Positions 1 through 14,954 of a stretch of 64,000 bases of DNA are shown one piece after another. Where the stretch lies: assembly GCF_029531655.1 (NCBI RefSeq), contig NZ_JANRMI010000001.1, forward strand, positions 806,001-870,000, written 5' to 3'. Both the position numbers and the translations under genes were made by a program. The number at the start of each line of letters is the position of its first letter. The first letter of the stretch is position 1. The notes beneath the pieces were generated by a model. It saw only the letters and a list, made by a program, of their open reading frames with translations. It had not been told where the DNA came from and searched no databases. Source of the stretch: Bdellovibrio svalbardensis. GTDB lineage: Bacteria; Bdellovibrionota; Bdellovibrionia; Bdellovibrionales; Bdellovibrionaceae.

Positions 1-3000
1 CTATATGTAGATCCAGCGAAGCTGGTATCTAAAAGGTGAACTTTTGAAATTGGCGAAGTTGTTCCGACTCCCAAGTAACCACTGCTAAGCATAGTGACCT
101 TGGGGTTGGCACCTCCGCCAGGCCAAAACTGAATTGGAGCGCCAGTATTTGTTAATAAGGTCAGGCCATTTGTGGAAGCAGAGCCTGCCGCCAAAATAGT
201 TGTTGAAGGTTGAAGTGCGCCAGCGGCGGTATAGTTGGCGCTTAAGTATTGAAGGGATGCAGTTGTTGCGCTGGAGGACCCAATGATGATTCCAGAGCGG
301 GCGGCCGTGTCGGATGTTTCGTTGGTAATATAAGCGAAGGTGGCAGCATTTTGGTCTTTTGAAATGTGTAGAATATTAGTTGGATTACTTGTGCCAATAC
401 CGACAGTGCCTCCACTTGGTGCAAGCAGAATGCTTCCTTTAGTCGCATGTGATGTAGAATCCAACGTCAAAGTTCCACTGGCTGCGGAACTACCATATAT
501 AATTGGAGTGTACATGCTGGTCGTTGCGGAAACACTGCCTGCGGAGCTGATGCTGCCTCCGGCGTTGATAGCACCACTGACTCCGACGCCACCACTAACA
601 ACAAGAGCTCCATTGTTTGAGGCGGTTGAGGCGGTTGCGTTCGTGATGGTCACAATACTGGGAGATGTTACAACTCCGGTGCCCGAAGATTGCAAAGTCA
701 CATTTTGATTTGTTCCACCTGCAGCAATCGTAACGGCACCAGAAGAGTTGGTGGTTACATTCGAGCCACCGGCAGAAGTGGTTAGACTGACCCAGGCACC
801 GTTTTGATAAACTTCCGCAAAGTTTGTTGTTGTATTGTAGCGAAGCATTCCATTACCGGGTGATGCAGGTTGTTGCGCGGTCGTTCCATTCGGCATACGA
901 AGAGCGTCAGTTTTTGAACCGATATCCAATGAGACTGCTGGAGTGGTCGTGCCTATGCCAATATTTCCCTTAAAGTAAGACTTACCATTTGTATTTGCAT
1001 AAATGGCATATCCAGAGTTAAAGCCTGATGCGATGTCGATGGCCTTCGAAGCCTTTGATGTTCCCGTGTCGGCAAAAAGTCTTAGACCTGATCCAGCAAC
1101 TAAACTGTCATTGATGCCCACATCAATGCCCCGAACATAGGACCCGCCAGCATTGTTAACGGAGGCATAGACATCCACGCCCACGGAGGCTCCATTTGAT
1201 TCTGTTTCAACTAAAACACCCGTCGAGTAATTGGAACCATTTGCATAAGTGTCGAGGCCCGTCGCATTGGCTGCAGTGCTGGAAATATTGGATTTGAATC
1301 CAGTGTAAGAAGCAGTTCCTGATTTGACAATGTCTACAGATGCGTTCGGAAGTCCTGTACCAATACCAACGTTCCCGTTGGTATCGACAGTGACTTGAGT
1401 GATGTTGTTAGTCTTAATCGCAAAACTATTATTGTCGTTAGTTCCAATCGTAGCTGCAGCTCCGAAAGAGTTGCCGCCATTAAGGAAAAATCCCGCAGAG
1501 TCAAAGGTCGAACAACCTGCAACACCTGAAGCATTAAATGTAATCGTTTGCCCCACGCCGCAGGCGAATGAAGTGTAAGCAGTCCCTGTGCCATTCGCAG
1601 CGACAAGCCCGTTGGCTGTGATAGACGAAGCTCCTGTGCCGCCTTTAGAAACCGGCACAACAGAAGGGAAGTTGGCAGGATCGGCAGAGATAGTTCCAGA
1701 ACTAACAGCGATACCGGCACCTGCTTGCACGACTCCTTTAGTGGAAGTGGTCGCATCATTCACAGAAATCACAGGCGTTGTCGTACCGGTAGCGACGACG
1801 ACTGGAAGTGTTCCGGTCACACTTGTGACAGTCCCATTCGTCGGCGTCACCCATTTCAAGCCACCGGCTTGAGCCGAATCGGCAGAAAGGACCTGTCCGT
1901 CTGTGCCGACAGCAAGGCGAATATTATTGGTGCCATCACGGGTAAGCAGATCACCTTTGGTGGTCAGGGGAGACAGAAGATTGAAGGCCCCCAAAGCTGT
2001 AGTCGCACCTGTACCGCCATTTGCAATCGGAAGTGTTCCAGTCACGTCTGAAGCCAAGTTCACACTTGTACCATTGGTGGCACTGGTCACGCGACCTTGA
2101 GCATCCACGGTGATGTTCGCGCGGGTATAAGATCCTGGAGTCACCGCGGTGTTCGCAAGATTTAAAGTCACAGTGCCCGTTGTACCTCCACCACTTAATC
2201 CAGTACCTGCAGTCACACCAGTGATGGTGCCGCCAGAACCAGAAGACGAAGCGATTGAAATCCAAGAGCCTGAGTTGTATTGATAAATCACTTTAGAATC
2301 GGTCGCGAAGTAAATCGCTCCGGCAGAAGGAGAGCCTGGTTTGCTTGCATCCAAACCTGTTTGAATGCTTGGAGTGCCTCCCGCATTTGTAACCAAAGAA
2401 TCGGTGATGCCATAACCAGTAAGAGTTGTTGGCTTACCGGTTGTGATCTTAGCCCAATCTAAAGCGGGAATATCTGCAGCGACCAACGAAGCCGCGCCAG
2501 AAGTGACACGTCCTTTTGAGTCCGTTGTAACTTTATAATAGGTGCCTGCAGTTCCTGCGTCGGCAAGAGTTAAAGTCGTAGAGCCTGCGGAAGAAGTCAC
2601 ATCACCAGAAAAAGAAGGCAAGTTCGCAGCAGGGATTGCTCCACTCAAATCACTGGCAAGCAATGGGGAGTTCACGAATGCGGAACCATTGTATTTCAAA
2701 TAGTCTTTATTCGCAGGAGTCGTGATCGTAAGTGTATTTCCTTGAAGCTTTGCAACCGTGGCTGCCGCAGAGCCAGCCCCACTGGCCGTCACATCGCCAG
2801 TCAGTGCAGTGATATAGTTGCCTGCTGCCTGTTTATTATTGAAGGTGTTCCAATCTGCAGAAGACAAATAACCACTTGTCGAAGTGGTCGCTTGAGAAAT
2901 CGAAATTGCTGGTGTGGTGGATCCATTGGTCACACTGAGAGGGGCACTGGCACTGACATTTGTGACAGTTCCACCACCATCATTGTCAGAACCAGGGGCC

Positions 3001-4178
3001 CATTTAGTGCCATCGTATTTTAAGACCTGACCCGTCGTTGGAGCGGCCGTTCCGACTGGAACTCCTTTGATTCTATCAACAGTCACAGCACCAATGCTGC
3101 CACTTGCATCGCCGGCAAGAGAGACATTGATGGCCTGACAAAGAAACTTACCAGCAACGGAGTTCCAGTAAGGAGTTTCATAAGTTGTACAGTTCGCACT
3201 GCCGACGGCAGTGTTGAATGCCGCGACAGTTTGATAACCGCTAAGAGTCGTAGAAAGATTTGTGACATCAGAAATAGCAATGGCCGAATTAATCCAATTC
3301 GTTCCATCGTATTTTAAAACCTGACCAGAGGTCAGTGCGGACGTTGATAAAGTGGTCCCGTTGAGTTTCGCAACGGACGGATTAGGATAAGTTCCGCCAA
3401 GATCTCCACCGGCAGTTGTTCCTGGCTGAAGAGCATTGACGATGCGGGAGTCATTTCCGGCAGCTACTGTATTCGCTGTTGTCCCCACATTCACAGTCAA
3501 AGCGGGAGTCGATGTATTATTGACTATGGTAAGGTAAGAATTGTTAGAGGTTACGGCTGTGACGGTACCACCTGAAGCTCCCGAAACGGCAGCACACGAA
3601 AGACTTGTCCCATCGTAACTTAAAAACGTTCCGGCAGCACAAGTTGGTAAACCCGTTTTAAGAACAAAGTCATCTGCGGTTTTTGATCCAAGAGTCTGTG
3701 CGGATTGAGCGAAAGCCGAATAAGGGACTGAGCGAATTTCACTATCAGGGTTGATGACTTTCCAGCCTGCGCCGTCGTGAAATTGCACGCGCAAAATTCG
3801 CGAATGACCTTGAGCCGGAGAGTAGGTGCTTGCAACATTATTGTTCGCATCGCCGCAATCCAAATTTGAAGAGTTATCGAAAACACTTAAAAGAGTTTTA
3901 GTTGGCGAGGGAGGAAAAAGTTTGGTTCCGGTACCGATCGGGACATCAAAAACCCCACCGGAATTCGTCATGTTCACAGCATTTTTTTGCTCACGATAGA
4001 TAACACAGGTTCCTGCGGGATTTGTAATTTCAAATAAAAAGCTAACATTGTTGTATTCTAGAGGAGTGCCATCGGATTTAAGAATACGCCCTTGATAGGT
4101 TAACGAATTTGGTGAGGCTTTCGCATGGAAAGCTCCAAATATAGAGAATAGAATGATCAAGCACGTACCAGTTCTCAT
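1..4178 (-). CDS. Secreted fibre/adhesin, mosaic stalk protein (3' end beyond window)
   Basis: About 1,392 codons are visible and the frame stays open to base 1, so the C-terminal tip lies outside the window. The start ATG at 4178 is fixed by alignment with the two paralogues downstream on the same strand: all begin MRT(G/C)TC and have a Sec signal peptide ending AKA/VQA/AEA before SPNSLTYQGRIL. After a conserved head of about 130 residues come low-complexity Ser/Thr/Gly/Ala modules (GGDLGGTYPNPSVAK, LTGDVTASG, IANGGTGATTA) and then NVGIGTTTP-type repeats, the pattern of phage tail-fibre-like trimeric stalks. Established knowledge, as I recall it: Bdellovibrio makes a family of mosaic adhesive trimer (MAT) fibres that act in prey recognition and invasion. 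Assignment to that family is inference from architecture. The first ~3 kb are about 95% identical by eye to the next gene. There is no Shine-Dalgarno; a sigma-28-like box ends 7 nt before the ATG. Confidence 0.8.
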   Translation of the reverse strand, partial: MRTGTCLIILFSIFGAFHAKASPNSLTYQGRILKSDGTPLEYNNVSFLFEITNPAGTCVIYREQKNAVNMTNSGGVFDVPIGTGTKLFPPSPTKTLLSVFDNSSNLDCGDANNNVASTYSPAQGHSRILRVQFHDGAGWKVINPDSEIRSVPYSAFAQSAQTLGSKTADDFVLKTGLPTCAAGTFLSYDGTSLSCAAVSGASGGTVTAVTSNNSYLTIVNNTSTPALTVNVGTTANTVAAGNDSRIVNALQPGTTAGGDLGGTYPNPSVAKLNGTTLSTSALTSGQVLKYDGTNWINSAIAISDVTNLSTTLSGYQTVAAFNTAVGSANCTTYETPYWNSVAGKFLCQAINVSLAGDASGSIGAVTVDRIKGVPVGTAAPTTGQVLKYDGTKWAPGSDNDGGGTVTNVSASAPLSVTNGSTTPAISISQATTSTSGYLSSADWNTFNNKQAAGNYITALTGDVTASGAGSAAATVAKLQGNTLTITTPANKDYLKYNGSAFVNSPLLASDLSGAIPAANLPSFSGDVTSSAGSTTLTLADAGTAGTYYKVTTDSKGRVTSGAASLVAADIPALDWAKITTGKPTTLTGYGITDSLVTNAGGTPSIQTGLDASKPGSPSAGAIYFATDSKVIYQYNSGSWISIASSSGSGGTITGVTAGTGLSGGGTTGTVTLNLANTAVTPGSYTRANITVDAQGRVTSATNGTSVNLASDVTGTLPIANGGTGATTALGAFNLLSPLTTKGDLLTRDGTNNIRLAVGTDGQVLSADSAQAGGLKWVTPTNGTVTSVTGTLPVVVATGTTTPVISVNDATTSTKGVVQAGAGIAVSSGTISADPANFPSVVPVSKGGTGASSITANGLVAANGTGTAYTSFACGVGQTITFNASGVAGCSTFDSAGFFLNGGNSFGAAATIGTNDNNSFAIKTNNITQVTVDTNGNVGIGTGLPNASVDIVKSGTASYTGFKSNISSTAANATGLDTYANGSNYSTGVLVETESNGASVGVDVYASVNNAGGSYVRGIDVGINDSLVAGSGLRLFADTGTSKASKAIDIASGFNSGYAIYANTNGKSYFKGNIGIGTTTPAVSLDIGSKTDALRMPNGTTAQQPASPGNGMLRYNTTTNFAEVYQNGAWVSLTTSAGGSNVTTNSSGAVTIAAGGTNQNVTLQSSGTGVVTSPSIVTITNATASTASNNGALVVSGGVGVSGAINAGGSISSAGSVSATTSMYTPIIYGSSAASGTLTLDSTSHATKGSILLAPSGGTVGIGTSNPTNILHISKDQNAATFAYITNETSDTAARSGIIIGSSSATTASLQYLSANYTAAGALQPSTTILAAGSASTNGLTLLTNTGAPIQFWPGGGANPKVTMLSSGYLGVGTTSPISKVHLLDTSFAGSTY

Positions 4179-4185
4179 ACTGATC

Positions 4186-4212
4186 TTATCGGCTTTTTAA
4201 CAAAAATTATGA
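4186..4212 (-). promoter_or_regulatory. Sigma-28-like promoter of fibre gene 1
   Basis: On the minus strand: TCAT (4212-4209), 15-nt spacer, then GCCGATAA (4193-4186), which is the exact FliA -10 consensus. Seven bases later comes the ATG. The -35 is a poor match to TAAA. The geometry recurs at the two other fibre genes and both propeller lipoproteins, and predicts a leaderless or almost leaderless mRNA. Confidence 0.5.
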
Positions 4213-4290
4213 GACCCCATGGGACTGTTTATTAAATGAGGGATGCTAGTGTTCCTAAAATGAGACTTCCATTTGGCGTGGTATTGAGGC

Positions 4291-4361
4291 CTATTTCTTT
4301 CTGCAGATCTTAGACTTTGGATTGACCTCACAGATAGCCTCACGCAGTTCGCTGTTTTCCT
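4291..4361 (-). pseudogene. Fossil 3' end of an S74-chaperone fibre gene
   Basis: These 71 bases are identical to 8495-8565, the last ~23 codons plus stop of the third fibre gene (coiled coil after the S74 chaperone domain). Here they are non-coding: they lie immediately after the TAG stop of the second fibre gene and out of its frame. The simplest reading is that fibre gene 2 once ended in the same chaperone/coil and its tip was replaced by recombination, leaving this scar. Confidence 0.75.
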
Positions 4362-7300
4362 CTACTTGATCTTCACTCTTACGGCAGCGGTATGCCAAAA
4401 GCCCGAGCTATAGCTTCCAGTGCAGATATAAATATATCTTCGGCCTTGTGTTTTGAGTGCATACTTACCAAATTGAATATTTCTGAATTCGCCGTTAAAC
4501 GCGATTGTATTAAACTGTATTCCTGTTGTCGAATCTGTCTTCGAATCGATGATAGTAGAAGTTGCGGTATATGTGACATCTGCAGGAGTGATGTAGTTGT
4601 AAATATCATTTTGAAAAGTGACTAAGTTAGACGAAACGCCGATTGAGATAGATTTCGCACTTCCATAGATATAGTTTGCATCCCAAACCAATGCGACATC
4701 GGTGTGTGTGATGCCGTCGGTATCCAGGATAATGCATCCTCCGATCCAGTTAGCTCCGGAGGAGCCAGCAACGGCAGAGTGAAGATACACCTTTTGATTC
4801 AGGAACCCTCCTTCTGGTTCCATTGATAGCGCATCCGAAGTGTTGTTAAAGTTCTTGCCGACAGTGAGTCGACCTGTCGGTAATGACATCCAACCGCCTT
4901 GACTCATGTGGCACCAGACATCCAGCTGTGGAATTGGGCCGGCGCCATCAGGGTCTATAGTGTAAACACCATCCCCGACATCCCCCGCATAAGATTTCAA
5001 TCCGGCCCCGGCTAGATAAGCTGCACAGCTAGTGGCATAAGTACCATCATAGTATCGTCGACCCGAATTATAGCGAACAATTCCAGATGTGGCACCACTT
5101 GCAGAAGCGGCCGTTGTTTGAGTGGTACCATCCGGAAATTTAATACCACCGCTCGTGGATTCGATGGTTCCGGCGACGCTTAACTTTTGCCCCGGACTGG
5201 CCGTGCCGATTCCAACTCTGCCAGAAGAATCAATTCTCATTCGTTCAGTGAGTGCAGCAGTGTCATTGCCATCATTCACTTTGAAGAGCAATGCCGCCGG
5301 TGTGACGCCTGCTGACCAATCTGATTCCGCGATGTAACTTATTGCCCCCGCAGTAACTTGGGTTCCCACTGTATCTATAACCCCAGCAGCACCAAGAGTG
5401 GAAAGATAGTCATTGGCCAATACGGGAGCGTAGACCGCTTCTGATGTGCCCCGATTTTTTACGCTCCAGAATGCGGCGCCTGAGCTGTGGTTGCCATAGC
5501 GAGTGGCATAAACCGAGCTATCTGTGAAGCCAGTTCCTACCACACTTAATCTTGCCGCTGGAGTTGTTGTACCAATCCCGACATTGCCAGATGTATCCAC
5601 AGTCAAACGTGTTGTATTATTGGTTTCAATCGCAAAAGTATTATTGTCATTTGTTCCAATCGTTGCTGCGGCAGCGAATGAGTTTCCGCCATTTAGGAAA
5701 AGTCCAGCGGAAGTATAGGTGCTACAGGCAGCAACACCTGACGCATTAAAAGTAATTGTTTGTCCCACGCCGCAAGCGAACGAAGTGTAAGCGGTGCCCG
5801 TGCCATTTGCAGCGACAAGCCCATTGGCCGTGATGGAGGAAGCTCCCGTGCCACCTTTAGAAACCGGCACAACAGAAGGGAAGTTGGCAGGATCTGCAGA
5901 GATGGTTCCAGAACTGACAGCGATACCTGCACCCACTTGCACGATACCTTTTGTCGAAGTGGTCGCATCATTCACAGAAACTACCGGAGTCGTCGTGCCA
6001 GTGGCAACGACGACTGGAAGAGTTCCACTCACGCTCGTAACGGTCCCATTCGTCGGTGTCACCCATTTCAATCCACTGGCTTGCGTCGAATCAGCCGAAA
6101 GAAATTGTCCGTCGGTGCCGGCAGGAAGACGAATGTTGTTGGTGCCATCGCGCGTAAGAAGGTCACCTTTTGTGGTGAGGGGAGATAGAAGATTGAAGGC
6201 CCCTAAGGCCGTTGTCGCGCCTGTGCCACCATTTGCAATCGGAAGTGTTCCTGTGATTTCTGAAGCCAGGTTCACACTGGCGCCATTGCTCGAACTGGTC
6301 ACACGACCTTGAGCATCCACGGTGATGTTCGCACGGGTATAGGAACCTGGAGTTACAGCAGTATTTGTAAGATTTAAAGTCACAGTGCCCGTTGTGCCGC
6401 CACCACTTAATCCAGTACCTGCAGTCACACCTGTGATGGTGCCACCGGAACCAGATGACGAAGCAATGGAAATCCAAGAACCAGAGTTGTACTGATAAAT
6501 AACTTTTGAATCAGTTGCGAAATAAATTGCCCCAGCAGAAGGAGAACCCGGCTTACTTGCATCCAAACCTGTTTGAATGCTCGGAGTGCCTCCGGCATTT
6601 GTAATCAAAGAATCCGTGATCCCATATCCAGAAAGCGTTGTTGGTTTTCCGGTGGTGATTTTAGTCCAATCCAAAGAGGGAATATCCGTAGCTATTAAAG
6701 AAGCAACCCCCGAGTTAACGCGACCCTTGGCGTCTGTTGTTACTTTATAATAAGTGCCTGCAGTTCCTACGTCGGCAAGAGTCAAGGTCGTAGATCCAGC
6801 CGAGGAAGTTACATCGCCAGAAAAAGCAGGCAAGTTCGCCGCAGGAATTGCTCCATTTAAATCACTGGCAAGCAATGGGGAGTTCACGAATGAGGAGCCG
6901 TTGTATTTCAAATAGTCTTTATTTGCAGGAGTCGTGATCGTAAGTGTACTCCCTTGAAGTTTCGCCACGGAAGCATTTGCGGAGCCAGCGCCACTGGCCG
7001 TCACATCACCAGTCAGTGCAGTGATATAGTTGCCTGCTGCTTGTTTACTATTGAAGGTGTTCCAATCTGCAGAAGACAAATAACCACTTGTCGAAGTGGT
7101 CGCCTGGGAAATTGAAATTGCTGGCGTCGTGGAACCATTGGTTACGCTCAAGGGAGCGCTCACACTGACATTCGTGACCGTGCCGCCACCATCATTGTCA
7201 GAACCAGGGGCCCATTTAGTGCCATCGTATTTTAAAACCTGACCCGTCGTAGGAGCGGCCGTTCCGACAGGAACTCCTTTGATTCTATCGACGGTCACGG

Positions 7301-8390
7301 CACCAATGCTCCCGCTGGCGTCGCCAGCAAGAGAGACATTGATGGCCTGACAAAGAAGCTTGCCAGCAACGGAGTTCCAGTAAGGAGTTTCATAAGTTGT
7401 ACAGTTAGCGCTGCCGACGGCAGTGTTGAATGCCGCGACAGTTTGATAACCGCTAAGAGTCGTAGAAAGATTTGTGACATCAGAAATAGCAATGGCCGAA
7501 TTAATCCAATTCGCTCCGTCGTATTTTAAAACCTGACCCGAGGTCAGCGCATTTAAAGACAAAGCGGTGCCATTAATTTTCGCAACAGAAGGATTTGGAT
7601 AGCTTCCACCAAGATCTCCACCGGCAGCTCCTGTTGGTACACGAGCATCGGTGAAACGGGGGTCATTGCCTGCCGCAACTGTATTTGAAGCTGTTCCTAC
7701 GTTCAAAGTCAGCGTAGGAGTCGATGTGTTATTGACGATAGTCAGATAAGAATTGCCGGAGGTTACAGTTGTGACCGTGCCTCCCGCCGCCCCGGAAACG
7801 GCAGCACACGAAAGACTTGTCCCATCGTAACTTAAGAACGTTCCGGCAGCACAAGTTGGCAAGCCTGTTTTAAGAACAAAGTCATCTGCGGTTTTTGATC
7901 CAAGAGTCTGCGCGGATTGTGCGAAAGCCGAATAAGGGACTGAGCGAATTTCACTATCGGGACTGATCAATTTCCAGCCTGTGCCGTCGTGAAATTGCAC
8001 GCGCAAAATTCGCGAATGACCTTGAGCCGGAGAGTAGGTGCTTGCGACATTATTGTTCGCATCGCCGCAATCCAAATTTGAAGAGTTATCGAAAACACTT
8101 AAAAGAGTTTTAGTGGGCGAGAGAGGAAAAAGTTTGCTTCCGGTACCTATCGGTACATCAAAAACCCCACCGGAATTCGCCATATTTACAGCATTTTTTT
8201 GCTCGCGATAGATAACACAGGTTCCGGCGGGATTTGTAATTTCAAATAGAAAGCTAACATTGTTGTATTCTAGAGGAGTGCCATCAGATTTAAGAATACG
8301 CCCTTGATAGGTTAACGAATTTGGTGAGGCTTGCACATGGAGAAGCCCAAATATAGAGAATAGAATGATCAAGTACGTACAAGTTCTCAT
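4362..8390 (-). CDS. Secreted fibre/adhesin with fibrinogen-like C-terminal tip
   Basis: 1,342 residues from the ATG at 8390. An upstream ATG at 8432 would add 14 residues, but paralogue alignment favours 8390. Order: signal peptide (about 1-20, ending VQA), conserved head (about 20-150), long Ser/Thr/Gly-rich stalk modules (about 180-950), NVGIGTTTP/RVGIGTASP stalk repeats (about 950-1080), then a distinct ~245-residue tip. The tip begins near 1098 with spaced signatures SCAAYL, GVYTIDPDG, VWCHMSQGGW, matching the start of fibrinogen C-terminal-like (FReD/intelectin-type) lectin domains. This suggests glycan binding, which is inference. It lacks the S74 chaperone of its downstream-strand neighbour; a 71-bp remnant of that module sits directly behind the stop codon. 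Probably exported and trimeric. The family assignment is good; the ligand is unknown. Confidence 0.85.
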   Translation of the reverse strand: MRTCTYLIILFSIFGLLHVQASPNSLTYQGRILKSDGTPLEYNNVSFLFEITNPAGTCVIYREQKNAVNMANSGGVFDVPIGTGSKLFPLSPTKTLLSVFDNSSNLDCGDANNNVASTYSPAQGHSRILRVQFHDGTGWKLISPDSEIRSVPYSAFAQSAQTLGSKTADDFVLKTGLPTCAAGTFLSYDGTSLSCAAVSGAAGGTVTTVTSGNSYLTIVNNTSTPTLTLNVGTASNTVAAGNDPRFTDARVPTGAAGGDLGGSYPNPSVAKINGTALSLNALTSGQVLKYDGANWINSAIAISDVTNLSTTLSGYQTVAAFNTAVGSANCTTYETPYWNSVAGKLLCQAINVSLAGDASGSIGAVTVDRIKGVPVGTAAPTTGQVLKYDGTKWAPGSDNDGGGTVTNVSVSAPLSVTNGSTTPAISISQATTSTSGYLSSADWNTFNSKQAAGNYITALTGDVTASGAGSANASVAKLQGSTLTITTPANKDYLKYNGSSFVNSPLLASDLNGAIPAANLPAFSGDVTSSAGSTTLTLADVGTAGTYYKVTTDAKGRVNSGVASLIATDIPSLDWTKITTGKPTTLSGYGITDSLITNAGGTPSIQTGLDASKPGSPSAGAIYFATDSKVIYQYNSGSWISIASSSGSGGTITGVTAGTGLSGGGTTGTVTLNLTNTAVTPGSYTRANITVDAQGRVTSSSNGASVNLASEITGTLPIANGGTGATTALGAFNLLSPLTTKGDLLTRDGTNNIRLPAGTDGQFLSADSTQASGLKWVTPTNGTVTSVSGTLPVVVATGTTTPVVSVNDATTSTKGIVQVGAGIAVSSGTISADPANFPSVVPVSKGGTGASSITANGLVAANGTGTAYTSFACGVGQTITFNASGVAACSTYTSAGLFLNGGNSFAAAATIGTNDNNTFAIETNNTTRLTVDTSGNVGIGTTTPAARLSVVGTGFTDSSVYATRYGNHSSGAAFWSVKNRGTSEAVYAPVLANDYLSTLGAAGVIDTVGTQVTAGAISYIAESDWSAGVTPAALLFKVNDGNDTAALTERMRIDSSGRVGIGTASPGQKLSVAGTIESTSGGIKFPDGTTQTTAASASGATSGIVRYNSGRRYYDGTYATSCAAYLAGAGLKSYAGDVGDGVYTIDPDGAGPIPQLDVWCHMSQGGWMSLPTGRLTVGKNFNNTSDALSMEPEGGFLNQKVYLHSAVAGSSGANWIGGCIILDTDGITHTDVALVWDANYIYGSAKSISIGVSSNLVTFQNDIYNYITPADVTYTATSTIIDSKTDSTTGIQFNTIAFNGEFRNIQFGKYALKTQGRRYIYICTGSYSSGFWHTAAVRVKIK

Positions 8391-8397
8391 GCTTGTT

Positions 8398-8425
8398 GTA
8401 TCGGTCATTTTTCTGGTTTTCATGA
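8398..8425 (-). promoter_or_regulatory. Sigma-28-like promoter of fibre gene 2
   Basis: Minus strand: TCAT (8425-8422), 16-nt spacer, ACCGATAC (8405-8398), then 7 nt to the ATG at 8390. This is a degenerate form of the exact GCCGATAA boxes of fibre genes 1 and 3. No Shine-Dalgarno is present. Confidence 0.4.
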
Positions 8426-8494
8426 GATCCAAAGGGTCAGCTTCTTAACAGACACGAGGGATCATTCTATTCTCAATAGGAGACGACAATGAGG

Positions 8495-11400
8495 CTATTT
8501 CTTTCTGCAGATCTTAGACTTTGGATTGACCTCACAGATAGCCTCACGCAGTTCGCTGTTTTCCTGTTTCAGAGAAGCAATTTCACGACTTTGCTTCTCG
8601 ACAATAGATTGAAGTTTCGCCAGTTGTGACTCGTTCATTTTGCAAAGACCTGCGAGTTCTTTAGTCGACTCAACCAAAGGTCCAATGAGCTTTGTATAGC
8701 CCACAGATTTATAGCCTTCGGTGTCTGTATCGACGGCTTCTGGGAAGACTTTTTCCACGTCTTGTGCGATGACCCCCATGTCCCGTTTTTCCGGGTATTT
8801 TAGATTTGGTCGCACATCGTGCCGCCAATCGAAGGTGACGCCGCGAAGTTGAAGAATTTTTTCCAACGAACTTGGAATTGTTTCGATATTTTTCTTAAGG
8901 CGTTCGTCCGAAGCATTCACATAGGCACTGGTTCCACCTGCGGTACCATTTACATAAAAGTTGTAACTGCCATTGACGGCACCATTAACTCCAATCAAGC
9001 CACCGGCACTGATAGTTAGCGCATTAGCACTTGCAGTTGTTGGCCCCGGGCGAATCCAAAATTGACCGCCGTCAACGCCCTGGAAGAATTTTTGATTCAT
9101 ATCCGCTTCTTCGAAAGCCATATAGGCCGCACTTGGGTTGTAGATGCTAAATGGTGCGATCGACGCGGCCGCGCCACCTTTATTGAGAGTCATCCATCCA
9201 TTGGTGTCGATGGTCATTCGAACACTGGAGCTCGGAGAGTCATAAATGAAGAAATTTTTGGTGCCGTTGATCTGAGAGTCTTGGCCAACCTCCCAACCAC
9301 CCATAATCATCGAAGCCCGCTGATCACCAGCAAGTCCACTTGATTGAATATTCAAGAGTCTGCTGCCACTGGTGGCTGCCAGATGTAACAAGCTTCCCGG
9401 CGTTTGAGTACCGATTCCGACATAACCTGAGTTGGTGATACGCATTCTTTCAGTTGAAGTGGTTGTTCCATTTGGAGTTGTGCGGAAAGTGATGTAATCC
9501 CCCTGTGCCGATGCTGTTTGGTCCTCTGATGCCCAGATCACCATGCCAGGGCTGGTTGTTCCAACGATTCCATTTTTTCCCAAGAACTGAGATATGAGGT
9601 CTCCTGAAAGAGGGTGAGTGGGGGCTGCAATTGTACCGCGAGCGCGTGTTCCGATAAATGTTCCTCCACTACTGACGGAGGCAGAGGTGACAGATTTTGC
9701 ATAGACGACAGCATCATTATCCTGAGTTTGCGTGATGATGTTGCCACCGACGAGTAACTTTAGATTTTGCGACGCACTCCAATTCCCAAGTTGATCAGAG
9801 GTATTGCCAATGCGAATGGTGTTGTCGCTTGCGGAAGTCGCAGGACCAATACCCCAATATCCAGAGTTCACCCAGTTTCCATTGTACTGTGCTTGTCCCG
9901 CAGAACTGAGATATGAACCAACATAAACTCCGTAAAGGTTTGTTTGCGAACCACTAGGTCCAACTTGCAAAAGATTTTTCGGATCACTCGCACCAATGCC
10001 GACATTTCCGGTCTCAGCGATGCGCATTCGCTCAGATGTTGAGGTGCTGCCAGTCGCCGTCGTATTAAAAAGTAATTGCGTGCCAGCGGTTCCCGCCGCC
10101 CAATCTTCTGAAGTCTGCGCGTAGATCTGCGCACCGGTCGCATAAGTCGAACCATTTTTTAAACCTTGAAACAGAACTTGTCCTAACTTGTCGCCACTTT
10201 TAACTGAAGTCGCTGCTGCGTAAGTTCCCCGAGCTGATTGAAGCAACAAGGAAGCATTACCTGAGGCGGATCCAGAGTAGTTATAAACATTGAATCCAGG
10301 AGATCGCGCGCTGGACGAAGATGTATTAATAATCGAAACCCCATTGGAGCTATCCGCGCTGGATAAAGTCAGAAGATCGCTTGGTGTTGCCGTTCCGATT
10401 CCCACTTTACCAGCGGTATCAATCGTCATTGCCACAGAGTTGTTCGTTTTGAAACCAAGAGTATAAGCATCATTAGTTCCCAATGTTGCAGCTGCACCAA
10501 AAGAGTTTCCTCCATTGATGAAGAAGCCCGCCGCAGTGAAAGACTGACAGCCTGGAATACCACTGGCATTGAATGTGATGGTCTGGCCAACAGCACAATT
10601 GAAAGGAATGTAGGAAGAACCCGTACCATCTGAAGCAACCAAGCGATTCGCCGTGATGGATGAAGCCCCGGTTCCACCTTTGGAAACAGGAACAACAGAA
10701 GGGAAGTTCGCGGGATCAGCAGAAATGGTTCCTGAAGCCACGGCAATACCGGCTCCGACTTGCACGACACCTTGAGCGGATGTTGTCGCGGCATTCACTG
10801 AAATTGCCGGAGTCGTTGTTCCAGTTGCGACAACAACAGGTAAAGTCCCAGTGACGCTGGTCACAGTTCCATTTGTTGGCGTGACCCACTTCAATCCACT
10901 CGATTGAGCTGAGTCTGCAGACAGCACCTGTCCGTTTGTACCAACTGCTAAACTGACATCGTTTGTGCCATCATTGGTGATCAAAGCACCTTTGGTTGAG
11001 ATCGGAGAAAGCGCATTGAAAGCGGTGATCGCTGTTGAAGCTCCCGTACCACCATTGGCAATTGGTAGGACACCTGAAACTTCCGAGGCTAAATTGATAG
11101 CGGAACCATTTGCCGCAGTCGTAATTCTTCCTTGCGCATCCACCGTGATGTTTGCTCTGGTATAAGAACCTGCCGTGACGGTTGTATTGGCAAGATTCAA
11201 AGTCACAGAACCAGAAGCACCACCACCACTCAGCCCAGTACCTGCAGTCACTCCCGTGATGGTTCCTCCAGAACCCGCAGCAGAAGCAATCGAAACCCAA
11301 GAGCCAGAGTTGTACTGATAGATAACTTTGGAATCTGTCGCAAAGTAAATGGCGCCCGCAGTGGGAGATGCGGGTTTACTTGCATCAAGTCCCGTTTGAA

Positions 11401-13936
11401 TGCTTGGAGTCCCACCGGCATTTGATACGAGTGAGTCGGTGATGCCATAACCAGAAAGAGTCGTGGGTTTTCCCGATATGATCTTCGACCAATCAAGACC
11501 TGGAATATCGGCAGCCACCAAAGAGGCAGAGCCCGAAGTCACACGTCCTTTAGAATCAGTCGTCACTTTATAATAAGTTCCCGCAGTTCCTACGGCAGCC
11601 AGATTTAGCACCACAGAGCCGGCCGAGGAAGTCACATCGCCACCCGTAAAGGCTGGAAGATTTGCCGCAGGGATGGCTCCACTTAAATCACTTGCCAACA
11701 AAGGCGAATTCACGAAGGCCGTGCCATTGAATTTCAGATAGTCTTTATTTGCAGGCGTCGTAATCGTTAAGGTACTACCTTGAAGTTTAGCCACTGTCGC
11801 AGCTGCAGAGTTTGGCCCGGTTGCCGTCACATCTCCGGTCAGCGCAGTGATATAACTGCCCGCTGCTTGTTTTCCATTAAATGTATTCCAATCCGCCGAA
11901 CTTAAATAGCCATTCGTAGATGTAGTGGCTTGAGAAATTGAAACCACCGGAGTCGTTGTTCCGGAACTCACACTGATCGGAGCCGTGCCAGTGACATTGG
12001 TCACTGTACCGGTGGTTGGAGTGATCCACTTTAAACCACCAGACTGTGCTGAATCCGCTGAAAGAACTTGTCCATTTGTACCAACGGTCAAACTGACATC
12101 GTTCGTTCCATCATTGGTGATCAATGCACCTTTGGTTGTGATAGGCGAAAGCGCATTGAAAGCCGTGATAGCTGTTGAGGCTCCCGTACCACCATTGGCG
12201 ATGGGTAGAACTCCTGAAACTTCTGAAGCTAAATTTATAGCCGATCCATTGGCAGCGGAGGTGATTCGGCCTTTTGAGTCTACTGTGATATTAGCTCTTG
12301 TGTAAGAGCCAGCAGTCACGGCGGTGTTGGCAAGAGTCAAGACCACAGAACCTGCGGAGGAAGTGACATCACCGCCGGTAAAAGCGGGAAGGTTTGCAGC
12401 GGGAATGGCTCCACTTAAATCACTTGCAAGTAGAGGTGAATTCACGAAGGCCGTGCCATTGAACTTCAGATAGTCTTTATTTGCAGGCGTCGTAATCGTT
12501 AAGGTACTACCTTGAAGTTTAGCCACTGTCGCAGCAGCAGAGTTTGGCCCGGTTGCCGTTACATCCCCAGTCAGCGCAGTGATATAACTGCCCGCTGCTT
12601 GTTTGCCATTAAAGGTATTCCAATCTGCAGAACTCAAGTAACCATTCGTAGAAGTAGTCGCTTGAGAAATCGAAACCACTGGAGTTGTAGTTCCGGAACT
12701 CACACTGATCGGAGCCGTGCCAGTGACATTGGTCACAGTACCGCCACCATTATTATCCGCTGCTGGCGCCCACTTAGTGCCGTCATATTTTAGAACCTGA
12801 CCGGTCAGGGGAGCTGTCGCATCTACAGAGACGCCTTTGATCTTATTCACAGTGATCGCGCCAATTGCACCGCTCACATCACCCGCGACAGAGACGTTAA
12901 TAGGCTGGCAAAGAAACTTGGAGGCCACTGAATTCCAGTAAGGAGTTTCATAGTCAGCGCAGTTCGCGCTGCCAACAGCGGTGTTAAATGCGGCCGTGGT
13001 GTGGTAACCAGAAAGATTGGTCGATAAGTTAGTAACATCGGCAATCGCAATAGCTGAGTTCACCCACTGACCGCTGGAATATTTCAAATACTGTCCAGAA
13101 GCAGGAGCCGCGACGCTAACATCGACCCCCTGAATTTTCGCAACAGAAGGATTTGGGTAGGTTCCACCTAAATCTCCACCGGCAGTTCCGATCGGAGTGC
13201 GCGCATCCGTAAAGCGCGAGTCATTACCAGCAGCCACTGTATTAGCAGCAGTGCCGACATTCAGTGTAAGGGCCGGCGTGGACGTATTATTGATAATAGT
13301 TAAATAAGAATTGCTGGATGTGACGGAGGTGACTGTTCCGCCGCTGGCTCCACTCACACTATTGCAGGCAAAAGCAGAGCCGTCCCAAGCAAGGAAAGTT
13401 CCAGCACTACAAGTCGGAAGAAGAGTCTTCGCAACAAAGTCATTTTCAGTTTTGCTGCCCAGTTTTTCGGCCGCCAAAGCAAACCCTGCATAAGGAACGG
13501 AGCGAATTTCACTAGACGGAGAAATCGACTTCCAACCAACGCCATCGTGAAACTTCACTTTCAATAAGCGAATATCACCTTGTGCAGGAGTATAGGTCGC
13601 ACCACCATCACAGTTTTGAAGTTTGGCATTATTGAAAGAATCTAAAAGAGTATAGAGCGGATCTGAAGGGAAGAGTTGAGTTCCCGAACCAATCGGCACG
13701 TCAAACACACCACCCGAGCTCATCATATTTACTGTGTTACGTTGCTCGCGATAAAGAACGCAATTGCCGCTGGGATTTGTAATTTCAAAAAGAAAGCTGA
13801 CATTATTATATTCAAGGGGAGTGCCGTCGGATTTGAGAATGCGTCCCTGGTAGGTTAAAGAATTGGGCGAAGCCTCTGCCCATAGCGAGCAGAATAGTGA
13901 GAAGACTAGAAGTGCAGTTAACGTACAGGTTCTCAT
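8495..13936 (-). CDS. Secreted fibre with C-terminal peptidase S74 chaperone domain
   Basis: 1,813 residues. Signal peptide (about 1-23, ending AEA), the same head as its two paralogues, a stalk of Ser/Thr/Gly-rich modules, several VGIGTxTP repeats (about 1,150-1,600), then at about 1,674-1,765 a phage-type S74 intramolecular chaperone beginning NASDERLKKNIETI with DMGVIAQDVEKVFPEAV, and a terminal coiled coil (about 1,766-1,804). S74 domains are known from phage tail spikes and fibres, where they trimerise the fibre and then cut themselves off before the Ser-Asp motif; that Ser-Asp pair and the following Arg and Lys are present (S1676 area). The stalk carries a 400-bp module twice, 732 bp apart. 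It is more diverged from fibres 1 and 2 than they are from each other. Start chosen by paralogue alignment; no Shine-Dalgarno. Confidence 0.88.
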   Translation of the reverse strand: MRTCTLTALLVFSLFCSLWAEASPNSLTYQGRILKSDGTPLEYNNVSFLFEITNPSGNCVLYREQRNTVNMMSSGGVFDVPIGSGTQLFPSDPLYTLLDSFNNAKLQNCDGGATYTPAQGDIRLLKVKFHDGVGWKSISPSSEIRSVPYAGFALAAEKLGSKTENDFVAKTLLPTCSAGTFLAWDGSAFACNSVSGASGGTVTSVTSSNSYLTIINNTSTPALTLNVGTAANTVAAGNDSRFTDARTPIGTAGGDLGGTYPNPSVAKIQGVDVSVAAPASGQYLKYSSGQWVNSAIAIADVTNLSTNLSGYHTTAAFNTAVGSANCADYETPYWNSVASKFLCQPINVSVAGDVSGAIGAITVNKIKGVSVDATAPLTGQVLKYDGTKWAPAADNNGGGTVTNVTGTAPISVSSGTTTPVVSISQATTSTNGYLSSADWNTFNGKQAAGSYITALTGDVTATGPNSAAATVAKLQGSTLTITTPANKDYLKFNGTAFVNSPLLASDLSGAIPAANLPAFTGGDVTSSAGSVVLTLANTAVTAGSYTRANITVDSKGRITSAANGSAINLASEVSGVLPIANGGTGASTAITAFNALSPITTKGALITNDGTNDVSLTVGTNGQVLSADSAQSGGLKWITPTTGTVTNVTGTAPISVSSGTTTPVVSISQATTSTNGYLSSADWNTFNGKQAAGSYITALTGDVTATGPNSAAATVAKLQGSTLTITTPANKDYLKFNGTAFVNSPLLASDLSGAIPAANLPAFTGGDVTSSAGSVVLNLAAVGTAGTYYKVTTDSKGRVTSGSASLVAADIPGLDWSKIISGKPTTLSGYGITDSLVSNAGGTPSIQTGLDASKPASPTAGAIYFATDSKVIYQYNSGSWVSIASAAGSGGTITGVTAGTGLSGGGASGSVTLNLANTTVTAGSYTRANITVDAQGRITTAANGSAINLASEVSGVLPIANGGTGASTAITAFNALSPISTKGALITNDGTNDVSLAVGTNGQVLSADSAQSSGLKWVTPTNGTVTSVTGTLPVVVATGTTTPAISVNAATTSAQGVVQVGAGIAVASGTISADPANFPSVVPVSKGGTGASSITANRLVASDGTGSSYIPFNCAVGQTITFNASGIPGCQSFTAAGFFINGGNSFGAAATLGTNDAYTLGFKTNNSVAMTIDTAGKVGIGTATPSDLLTLSSADSSNGVSIINTSSSSARSPGFNVYNYSGSASGNASLLLQSARGTYAAATSVKSGDKLGQVLFQGLKNGSTYATGAQIYAQTSEDWAAGTAGTQLLFNTTATGSTSTSERMRIAETGNVGIGASDPKNLLQVGPSGSQTNLYGVYVGSYLSSAGQAQYNGNWVNSGYWGIGPATSASDNTIRIGNTSDQLGNWSASQNLKLLVGGNIITQTQDNDAVVYAKSVTSASVSSGGTFIGTRARGTIAAPTHPLSGDLISQFLGKNGIVGTTSPGMVIWASEDQTASAQGDYITFRTTPNGTTTSTERMRITNSGYVGIGTQTPGSLLHLAATSGSRLLNIQSSGLAGDQRASMIMGGWEVGQDSQINGTKNFFIYDSPSSSVRMTIDTNGWMTLNKGGAAASIAPFSIYNPSAAYMAFEEADMNQKFFQGVDGGQFWIRPGPTTASANALTISAGGLIGVNGAVNGSYNFYVNGTAGGTSAYVNASDERLKKNIETIPSSLEKILQLRGVTFDWRHDVRPNLKYPEKRDMGVIAQDVEKVFPEAVDTDTEGYKSVGYTKLIGPLVESTKELAGLCKMNESQLAKLQSIVEKQSREIASLKQENSELREAICEVNPKSKICRKK
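11611..12010 (-). repeat. Intragenic stalk module, copy 2
   Basis: This ~400-bp block encodes essentially the same residues as 12343-12742 but with many synonymous differences. The offset is 732 bp, exactly 244 codons, so the frame is kept. Fibres 1 and 2 have the module once. Confidence 0.8.
12343..12742 (-). repeat. Intragenic stalk module, copy 1
   Basis: Partner of 11611-12010. The two copies encode the stretch from the TVTNVTGTAPISV motif to TSSAGSVVL. Protein identity with synonymous DNA drift suggests an older in-frame duplication kept under selection. Confidence 0.8.
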
Positions 13937-14066: not shown

Positions 14067-14954
14067 TTATTCCGGCTGAGGCTTTTTCGCGAGTGTGTTA
14101 GCAACCAAGGCCATCGCAATTATGAGGGCTCCACATAGTTGTCGTAAGCTTAAAGTTTCATGGAAATACCAGGTACCTAAGAGAGCTGCCGTGATGGGTT
14201 CGATCATCATCAACAAAGCAACCTCAGAACTTTTCAATTTCTGCAAAGCGGCCAATTCCATAGTTAATGGAATGATGGTGCTGATCACCGCGATGCCCAG
14301 AATGCTGGTCGCTTGGGTCGTTGTCAGTTTAAGCAGATCTGAAAAGTGCGGCTGGTGAAACGCCGACAGTGCCAAGGCTCCAAAGGTAATAACATAGAGA
14401 CTGGAAGTGATGGGGCGAACAGTTTTCTGCAAGCGTCCTGACAGAAGAACATAGATCGCGTAACTGATTGCTGCCCCTAAGCCAGCGGCCACCGCCCAGA
14501 AATTGTTCACTTCAAGATGGCCCCATAACAACATCAAAAGTCCGACAGAAGCGGCTATCAAACACAGAGCCTCTTTGCGCGAAATTTTATCGTGAGTGAA
14601 GAAGTGCGAAAAGATATTCACCCAAAATGGATAAGTATAAAGCAGGAGCGCCGCGAGAGTGACACTGACGCCTTCGACGGCTTTGAAATACAGGGTCGAG
14701 AAAAAGGCATAGCCAAAGATTCCCAACATGGCAGCGACAAAGATTTGTTTTTTCGAAAGACGAATCCAGTCAGGCTTGAACAGCAGAAGGAAGATCCAGA
14801 TCAGAAGGGCTGCAAGAGTGAAGCGGTAGGAAAGAAACTCTCCGACAGAAAGACCGCTTTGAAAGGCGATCTTTCCGAAGATGCCCAAGAAACCAAAACC
14901 CACGCTGCCAATCGAAATTTCAATAATTCCGCGAAGTCGTGGGCTGATTTTCAT
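14067..14954 (-). CDS. DMT-family transporter (EamA type)
   Basis: 295 residues with about ten hydrophobic segments in two halves, the layout of EamA/RhaT-type drug/metabolite transporters of the inner membrane. The N half has GFLGIFGKIAFQSG and the C half ends with LGTWYFHETLSLRQLCGA, the typical second EamA repeat (tip glutamate followed by a new helix). The protein ends in a short basic tail. Its start lies 3 nt behind the rluB stop, so it is probably translated from the same mRNA as rluB. The substrate cannot be told from sequence. The 130 bp between its stop and fibre gene 3 hold the fibre promoter region and no terminator hairpin that I can see. Confidence 0.85.
   Translation of the reverse strand: MKISPRLRGIIEISIGSVGFGFLGIFGKIAFQSGLSVGEFLSYRFTLAALLIWIFLLLFKPDWIRLSKKQIFVAAMLGIFGYAFFSTLYFKAVEGVSVTLAALLLYTYPFWVNIFSHFFTHDKISRKEALCLIAASVGLLMLLWGHLEVNNFWAVAAGLGAAISYAIYVLLSGRLQKTVRPITSSLYVITFGALALSAFHQPHFSDLLKLTTTQATSILGIAVISTIIPLTMELAALQKLKSSEVALLMMIEPITAALLGTWYFHETLSLRQLCGALIIAMALVANTLAKKPQPE

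Follow-up and report, generated by a model that had tools for sequence, protein, structure and literature searches.

A 71-bp direct repeat around a fibre gene of Bdellovibrio svalbardensis may mark the insertion of that gene between two neighbours

The middle one of three fibre genes on the minus strand of the Bdellovibrio svalbardensis genome is enclosed by a 71-bp direct repeat. One copy is the coding end of the preceding fibre gene and the other is a non-coding remnant. With moderate confidence, we read this repeat as the mark of an insertion, in which a B-type gene (gene 2) would have entered where fibre A adjoins fibre B and repeated the end of A. The window is the whole stretch of DNA that was analysed, 64,000 nucleotides in length, and coordinates are those of the window unless a contig is named.

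On the minus strand, along which all of the fibre genes run, the 71 bases at 4291-4361 are identical to those at 8495-8565 (71/71), a match far above chance. The likeness extends to 76 of 77 columns (98.7%), with one single-base indel immediately beyond the stop codon. A search of the whole home genome returned these two copies and no more (E 2.8e-35 and 2.3e-31). The copy at 8495-8565 belongs to gene 3, where it encodes the 22 C-terminal residues of the S74 tail, ending in ..ENSELREAICEVNPKSKICRKK*; this tail is A-type by tree. The downstream half of the repeat, here called the scar (4291-4361), starts without a gap after the TAG of gene 2 (4362-4364) and lies in no fibre reading frame. Among the array genes examined, gene 2 alone is flanked by a repeat of this kind. 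The first-pass annotation had reported the identity of the two copies, the non-coding position of the second straight after gene 2, and a gene 2 tip that is fibrinogen-like instead of S74; all three observations were confirmed.

Genes 2 and 3 carry the N-terminal domain of mosaic adhesive trimer (MAT) fibres, and the three fibre genes differ in type. Gene 3 (8495-13936, minus strand) is an A-type MAT fibre gene with an S74 chaperone end (NF053851, E 7.3e-72; PF13884, E 1.7e-18). Upstream of it lies an EamA transporter gene (14067-14954, minus strand; PF00892), a conserved flank of the fibre hotspot with synteny in the genus. Gene 2 (4362-8390, minus strand) combines a B-type 5′ module with a fibrinogen-like tip. 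The MAT N-terminal domain was found at residues 11-175 of its product, behind a signal peptide (NF053851, E 4e-68). No Peptidase_S74 match was obtained for gene 2, and its tip carries a fibrinogen-like GGGW motif instead (NF040941, E 6.3e-8; 4887-4997, minus strand, residues 35-71 of the last 245 amino acids). Judged by its sequence, with both the conserved N-terminal domain and a variable C-terminal tip present, gene 2 is a member of the MAT superfamily. Only the 5′ part of gene 1 falls in the window (3-4178, minus strand); the gene ends beyond it, at G000:C1:804440, in an S74-type tail. Its 5′ module is B-type and its tip is related to a fibre at another locus.

These types were assigned with two trees, one of about 330 N-terminal residues (5′ tree) and one of the last 170 residues (3′ tree). 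Gene 3 groups with fibre A of the nearest relative (G005) in the 5′ tree (100/98) and stands beside it within the A clade of the 3′ tree (99/95), as expected of an ortholog. Genes 1 and 2 are sisters in the 5′ tree (81/70) and both group with the last fibre of G005, fibre B (100/99), to which they are co-orthologous in this 5′ module. In the 3′ tree, gene 1 is not part of the B clade but joins a fibre of G002 from another locus (100/100). Given its B-type start and foreign tip, gene 1 is a chimera.

Each of the three genes has its own FliA-like promoter, of the form CTCAT-N16/17-CCGATA; the published consensus is TTAAG-N16-CCGATA (PMC3627812). The spacer between gene 3 and gene 2 (8391-8494, minus strand) holds CTCAT-N17-CCGATA at 8426-8399, and that between the scar and gene 1 (4179-4290, minus strand) holds CTCAT-N16-CCGATA at 4213-4187. 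Of 96 aligned bases, 67 are identical between the two spacers (z 4). Gene 3 likewise has such a promoter at 13972-13946 on the minus strand. All three promoters end about 8-11 bases before the ATG, and the predicted mRNAs would therefore be leaderless or nearly so.

Comparison of the locus between species of the genus identified a hotspot of fibre genes between EamA and PrmA/RsmE; most of the species compared have 0 to 4 of these genes there. In five of them (G005, G006, G002, G023, G016) a B gene comes immediately after an A gene; the order is X, A, B in G005 and A, B in the other four. A tails end like gene 3; among the endings of B tails is NEKAQRIPASADK. The scar, the spacer behind it and the start of gene 1 are colinear with the A end, spacer and B gene of G005. 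Remnant, spacer and gene 1 thus form the usual A|B border of the relatives, and either an insertion of gene 2 or a duplication at this border explains the scar. In G007 the hotspot is split, with EamA and three fibre matches (G007:C1, 535-547 kb) lying about 435 kb from RsmE and two more (981-991 kb); this split, with its short fibre frames, suggests rearrangement through fibre genes. In G018 a truncated fibre frame leads into microsatellite-like simple repeats, which may be foreign to the assembled genome.

Insertion is the one-step account of this arrangement, as the scar is an A tail, sits at the A|B border and lies behind a B-type gene. We infer its direction, donor and mechanism as follows. 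Gene 2, with its B-type 5′ module, fibrinogen-like tip and own promoter spacer, would have entered between gene 3 (A) and gene 1 (B). The likeliest route would combine one homologous crossover, placed at the end of A, with one illegitimate join just past the gene 2 stop, the latter landing 71 bp inside the end of A. Homology-facilitated illegitimate recombination of this kind would fit the anatomy of the scar, which abuts an unrelated tip upstream and stops at the end of A homology downstream. The single crossover of a circle could give the same product. By either route, the array would gain a fibre with a new tip and both neighbours would stay intact. As a counter-point, both 71-bp copies would have stayed identical only if the crossover fell at the very end of A.

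The tip that gene 2 would have brought with it has no evident source, which counts against the insertion. Its last 245 amino acids have no close relative in 24 genomes of the genus, no match was found in phages and none in Pfam, and the sole match among solved structures is at chance level. Weak relatives in the order cover mainly the GGGW motif region. A single-sequence fold of the tip alone was unusable (pLDDT 32).

The relative ages of the sequences also bear on the insertion. Genes 1 and 2 share a 2.9-kb block that begins at the 71 bp and is 86.6% identical at the nucleotide level, with a dS of 0.49 in its coding part (5628-8390 of gene 2, minus strand). The remainder of gene 2 (4362-5627, minus strand), a beta-helix and tip module starting at about an NVGIGT motif, has no counterpart in gene 1 in the alignment of the two. 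Four-fold sites of the common part are mostly 50-70% identical, with better patches toward the start, and reach about 85% in the first 180 codons. Had the non-coding 71 bp existed for as long as the spacers, many of its bases would have changed, and none has. Barring recent homogenisation, the copy therefore arose after genes 1 and 2 split. On this evidence, the copy is most likely recent, as would be expected if an already diverged gene had arrived. The gene 1 spacer also resembles the A-B spacers of relatives somewhat more than the gene 2 spacer does (z 2.2 versus 0.2 for G005; 3.3 versus 0.8 for G023), a difference to which promoter conservation contributes.

The first-pass annotation had interpreted the scar differently, as the trace of a tip replaced in place: gene 2 would once have ended in an A-type S74 tip, and the fibrinogen-like tip that replaced it would have left the last 71 bp. 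We regard this as unlikely, although parts of the interpretation stand. The scar is a trace of recombination, it appears to be recent, and replacement that leaves debris occurs behind gene 1 and in G020. The part that did not survive is an S74 tip of gene 2's own, since its 5′ part is of B type and the tails of B genes are B tails. Gene 2 would need first to have gained the tail of gene 3, so recently that the two are still identical, and then to have lost it, which amounts to two events.

Gene 1 provides the clearest example of such debris. Behind it, 53 bases at G000:C1:804302-804354 match the coding B tail of G005 at 48 positions (91%). This abandoned B tail sits about 85 bases past the gene 1 stop, and gene 1 itself has a tip of another type. 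The sequences support a replacement in which gene 1 exchanged its B tip for one of another type and its former tail was left as debris. A remnant of the gene's own tail together with a foreign tip is thus found at gene 1; at gene 2, the remnant is of A type behind a B-type gene. A search of the home genome for the donor locus of the gene 1 tip, made by way of the gene next to that locus, found no ortholog of this neighbour (best 33%). The small lipoprotein-like gene that follows has its FliA-like promoter, CTCAA-N16-CCGATA, within this B-tail scar, and this function may explain why the scar has survived. More generally, the 3′ ends of B-type fibre genes overlap a FliA-like promoter that belongs to the small lipoprotein-like gene following them, with the stop codon lying within CCGATAA in several species.

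In G020, a B-tail remnant (72 bp, 75%; ..SIKSQNETSQRAPASTR*) directly follows the stop of the last fibre gene, which has a different coiled-coil end. This remnant keeps its own stop codon and is separate from the promoter. The tail type in G020 is uncertain because of its long branch near the B clade, which makes this case weaker than that of gene 1.

To gauge the frequency of such remnants, the 400 bp behind the stop of each of 157 fibre genes were scanned for the tail of any other fibre. Three clear scars were found, behind gene 2, gene 1 and the G020 gene; the reverse-complement control gave one match, at E 0.006. Weaker matches (E 1e-4 or worse) were rejected as chance, as part of the following gene's coding sequence (G020 L098) or as promoter similarity (G012, G022). 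Replacement with debris left behind therefore does occur, but not often. In the home genome, the region from EamA to PrmA/RsmE contains, besides fibre genes, only a small lipoprotein-like ORF and another ORF with no family assignment, and no recombinase family (integrase, transposase or reverse transcriptase) was found among the nine flanking ORFs scanned. With only three clear scars in 157 genes and no recombinase in the interval that the conserved flanks enclose, the suggestion of the first-pass annotation that the array exchanges tips in cassette fashion is not supported if a regular programme is meant by it.

A duplication could also have produced the scar. In this account, an old tandem duplication of the end of A, the spacer and B was followed by recent gene conversion of the 71 bp with the tail of gene 3. 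The alignment of genes 2 and 1 from the 71 bp onward and the alignable spacers are in keeping with it. So is the mosaic identity of the two genes, which points to conversion between copies: the first 180 codons of gene 2 (7851-8390) are 94% alike to gene 1, above most of the common part, and this pattern suggests gene conversion between the 5′ ends. Given such patches of higher identity, conversion might have reached the 71 bp too. However, its target would be an isolated, non-coding and already diverged stretch of 71 bp, and it would have to halt at the stop codon; we consider the account quite unlikely.

Two further explanations are very improbable. The 71 bp might be taken for a conserved terminator or regulatory element, given that remnants can overlap promoters, as the B-tail scar behind gene 1 does; however, neither a terminator nor a FliA motif was found in the 71 bp, its RNA fold is ordinary (z -0.64), and among 60 genomes it otherwise occurs only as the coding 3′ end of the relatives of gene 3 (A genes). 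The same occurrence data, from the home genome and the 60 genomes, and the lack of a terminator or unusual fold exclude a general element behind many unrelated genes, the alternative that the first-pass annotation had itself raised. An assembly artefact might be suspected in a repetitive array, but it hardly accounts for a 71-bp repeat internal to a 1.16-Mb contig, which is a poor candidate for mis-assembly; the fibre genes differ clearly outside the perfect repeat, and an analogous scar is present in an independent assembly (G020).

In the preferred reading, insertion at the A|B border has left gene 2 flanked by direct repeats, and recombination between these could excise it cleanly. It is conceivable, if rather improbable, that gene 2 is a reversible module. 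Excision would then leave an intact A followed by gene 1, predators with and without this fibre would coexist in a population, and the array would act as a slow switch of the prey-binding repertoire.

The MAT fibres of Bdellovibrio were described by Caulton et al. (2024), who argue from protein structures (PMC10769870). The fibres described there resemble the products of genes 2 and 3 in their constant 5′ end, variable adhesive tip and MAT N-terminal domain. In its main text, as far as available, the words "fibrinogen", "tandem" and "operon" do not occur, and recombination is named only for the making of mutants (PMC10769870). Tip swapping was thus proposed earlier from structures; what the present sequence comparison adds is a DNA trace, a hotspot and a simple candidate mechanism.

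A comparable process is described for the type VI effector-immunity modules of Vibrio cholerae, which are displaced sequentially and for which homology-facilitated illegitimate recombination was invoked (Kirchberger et al. 2017, PMC5361080). The two systems are alike in their constant 5′ part, new 3′ part and displaced 3′ remnants downstream. They differ in that the type VI remnants are immunity genes whereas the fibre scars are short non-coding tails, and in that the remnant at gene 2 is the tail of a neighbour rather than its own. Likewise, compared with the orphan 3′ regions of Rhs loci discussed in the same paper, the fibre scars are only 50-80 bp long and no longer coding; the comparison concerns the way of working and claims no shared ancestry.

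The remnants can be viewed as DNA-level fossils of MAT tip swapping, and the hotspot between EamA and PrmA/RsmE as a place where the process can be watched. They suggest that tips are renewed by ordinary recombination in conserved 5′ modules combined with a sloppy downstream join, without dedicated machinery. The predator would thereby have a simple route to renew its prey-binding set.
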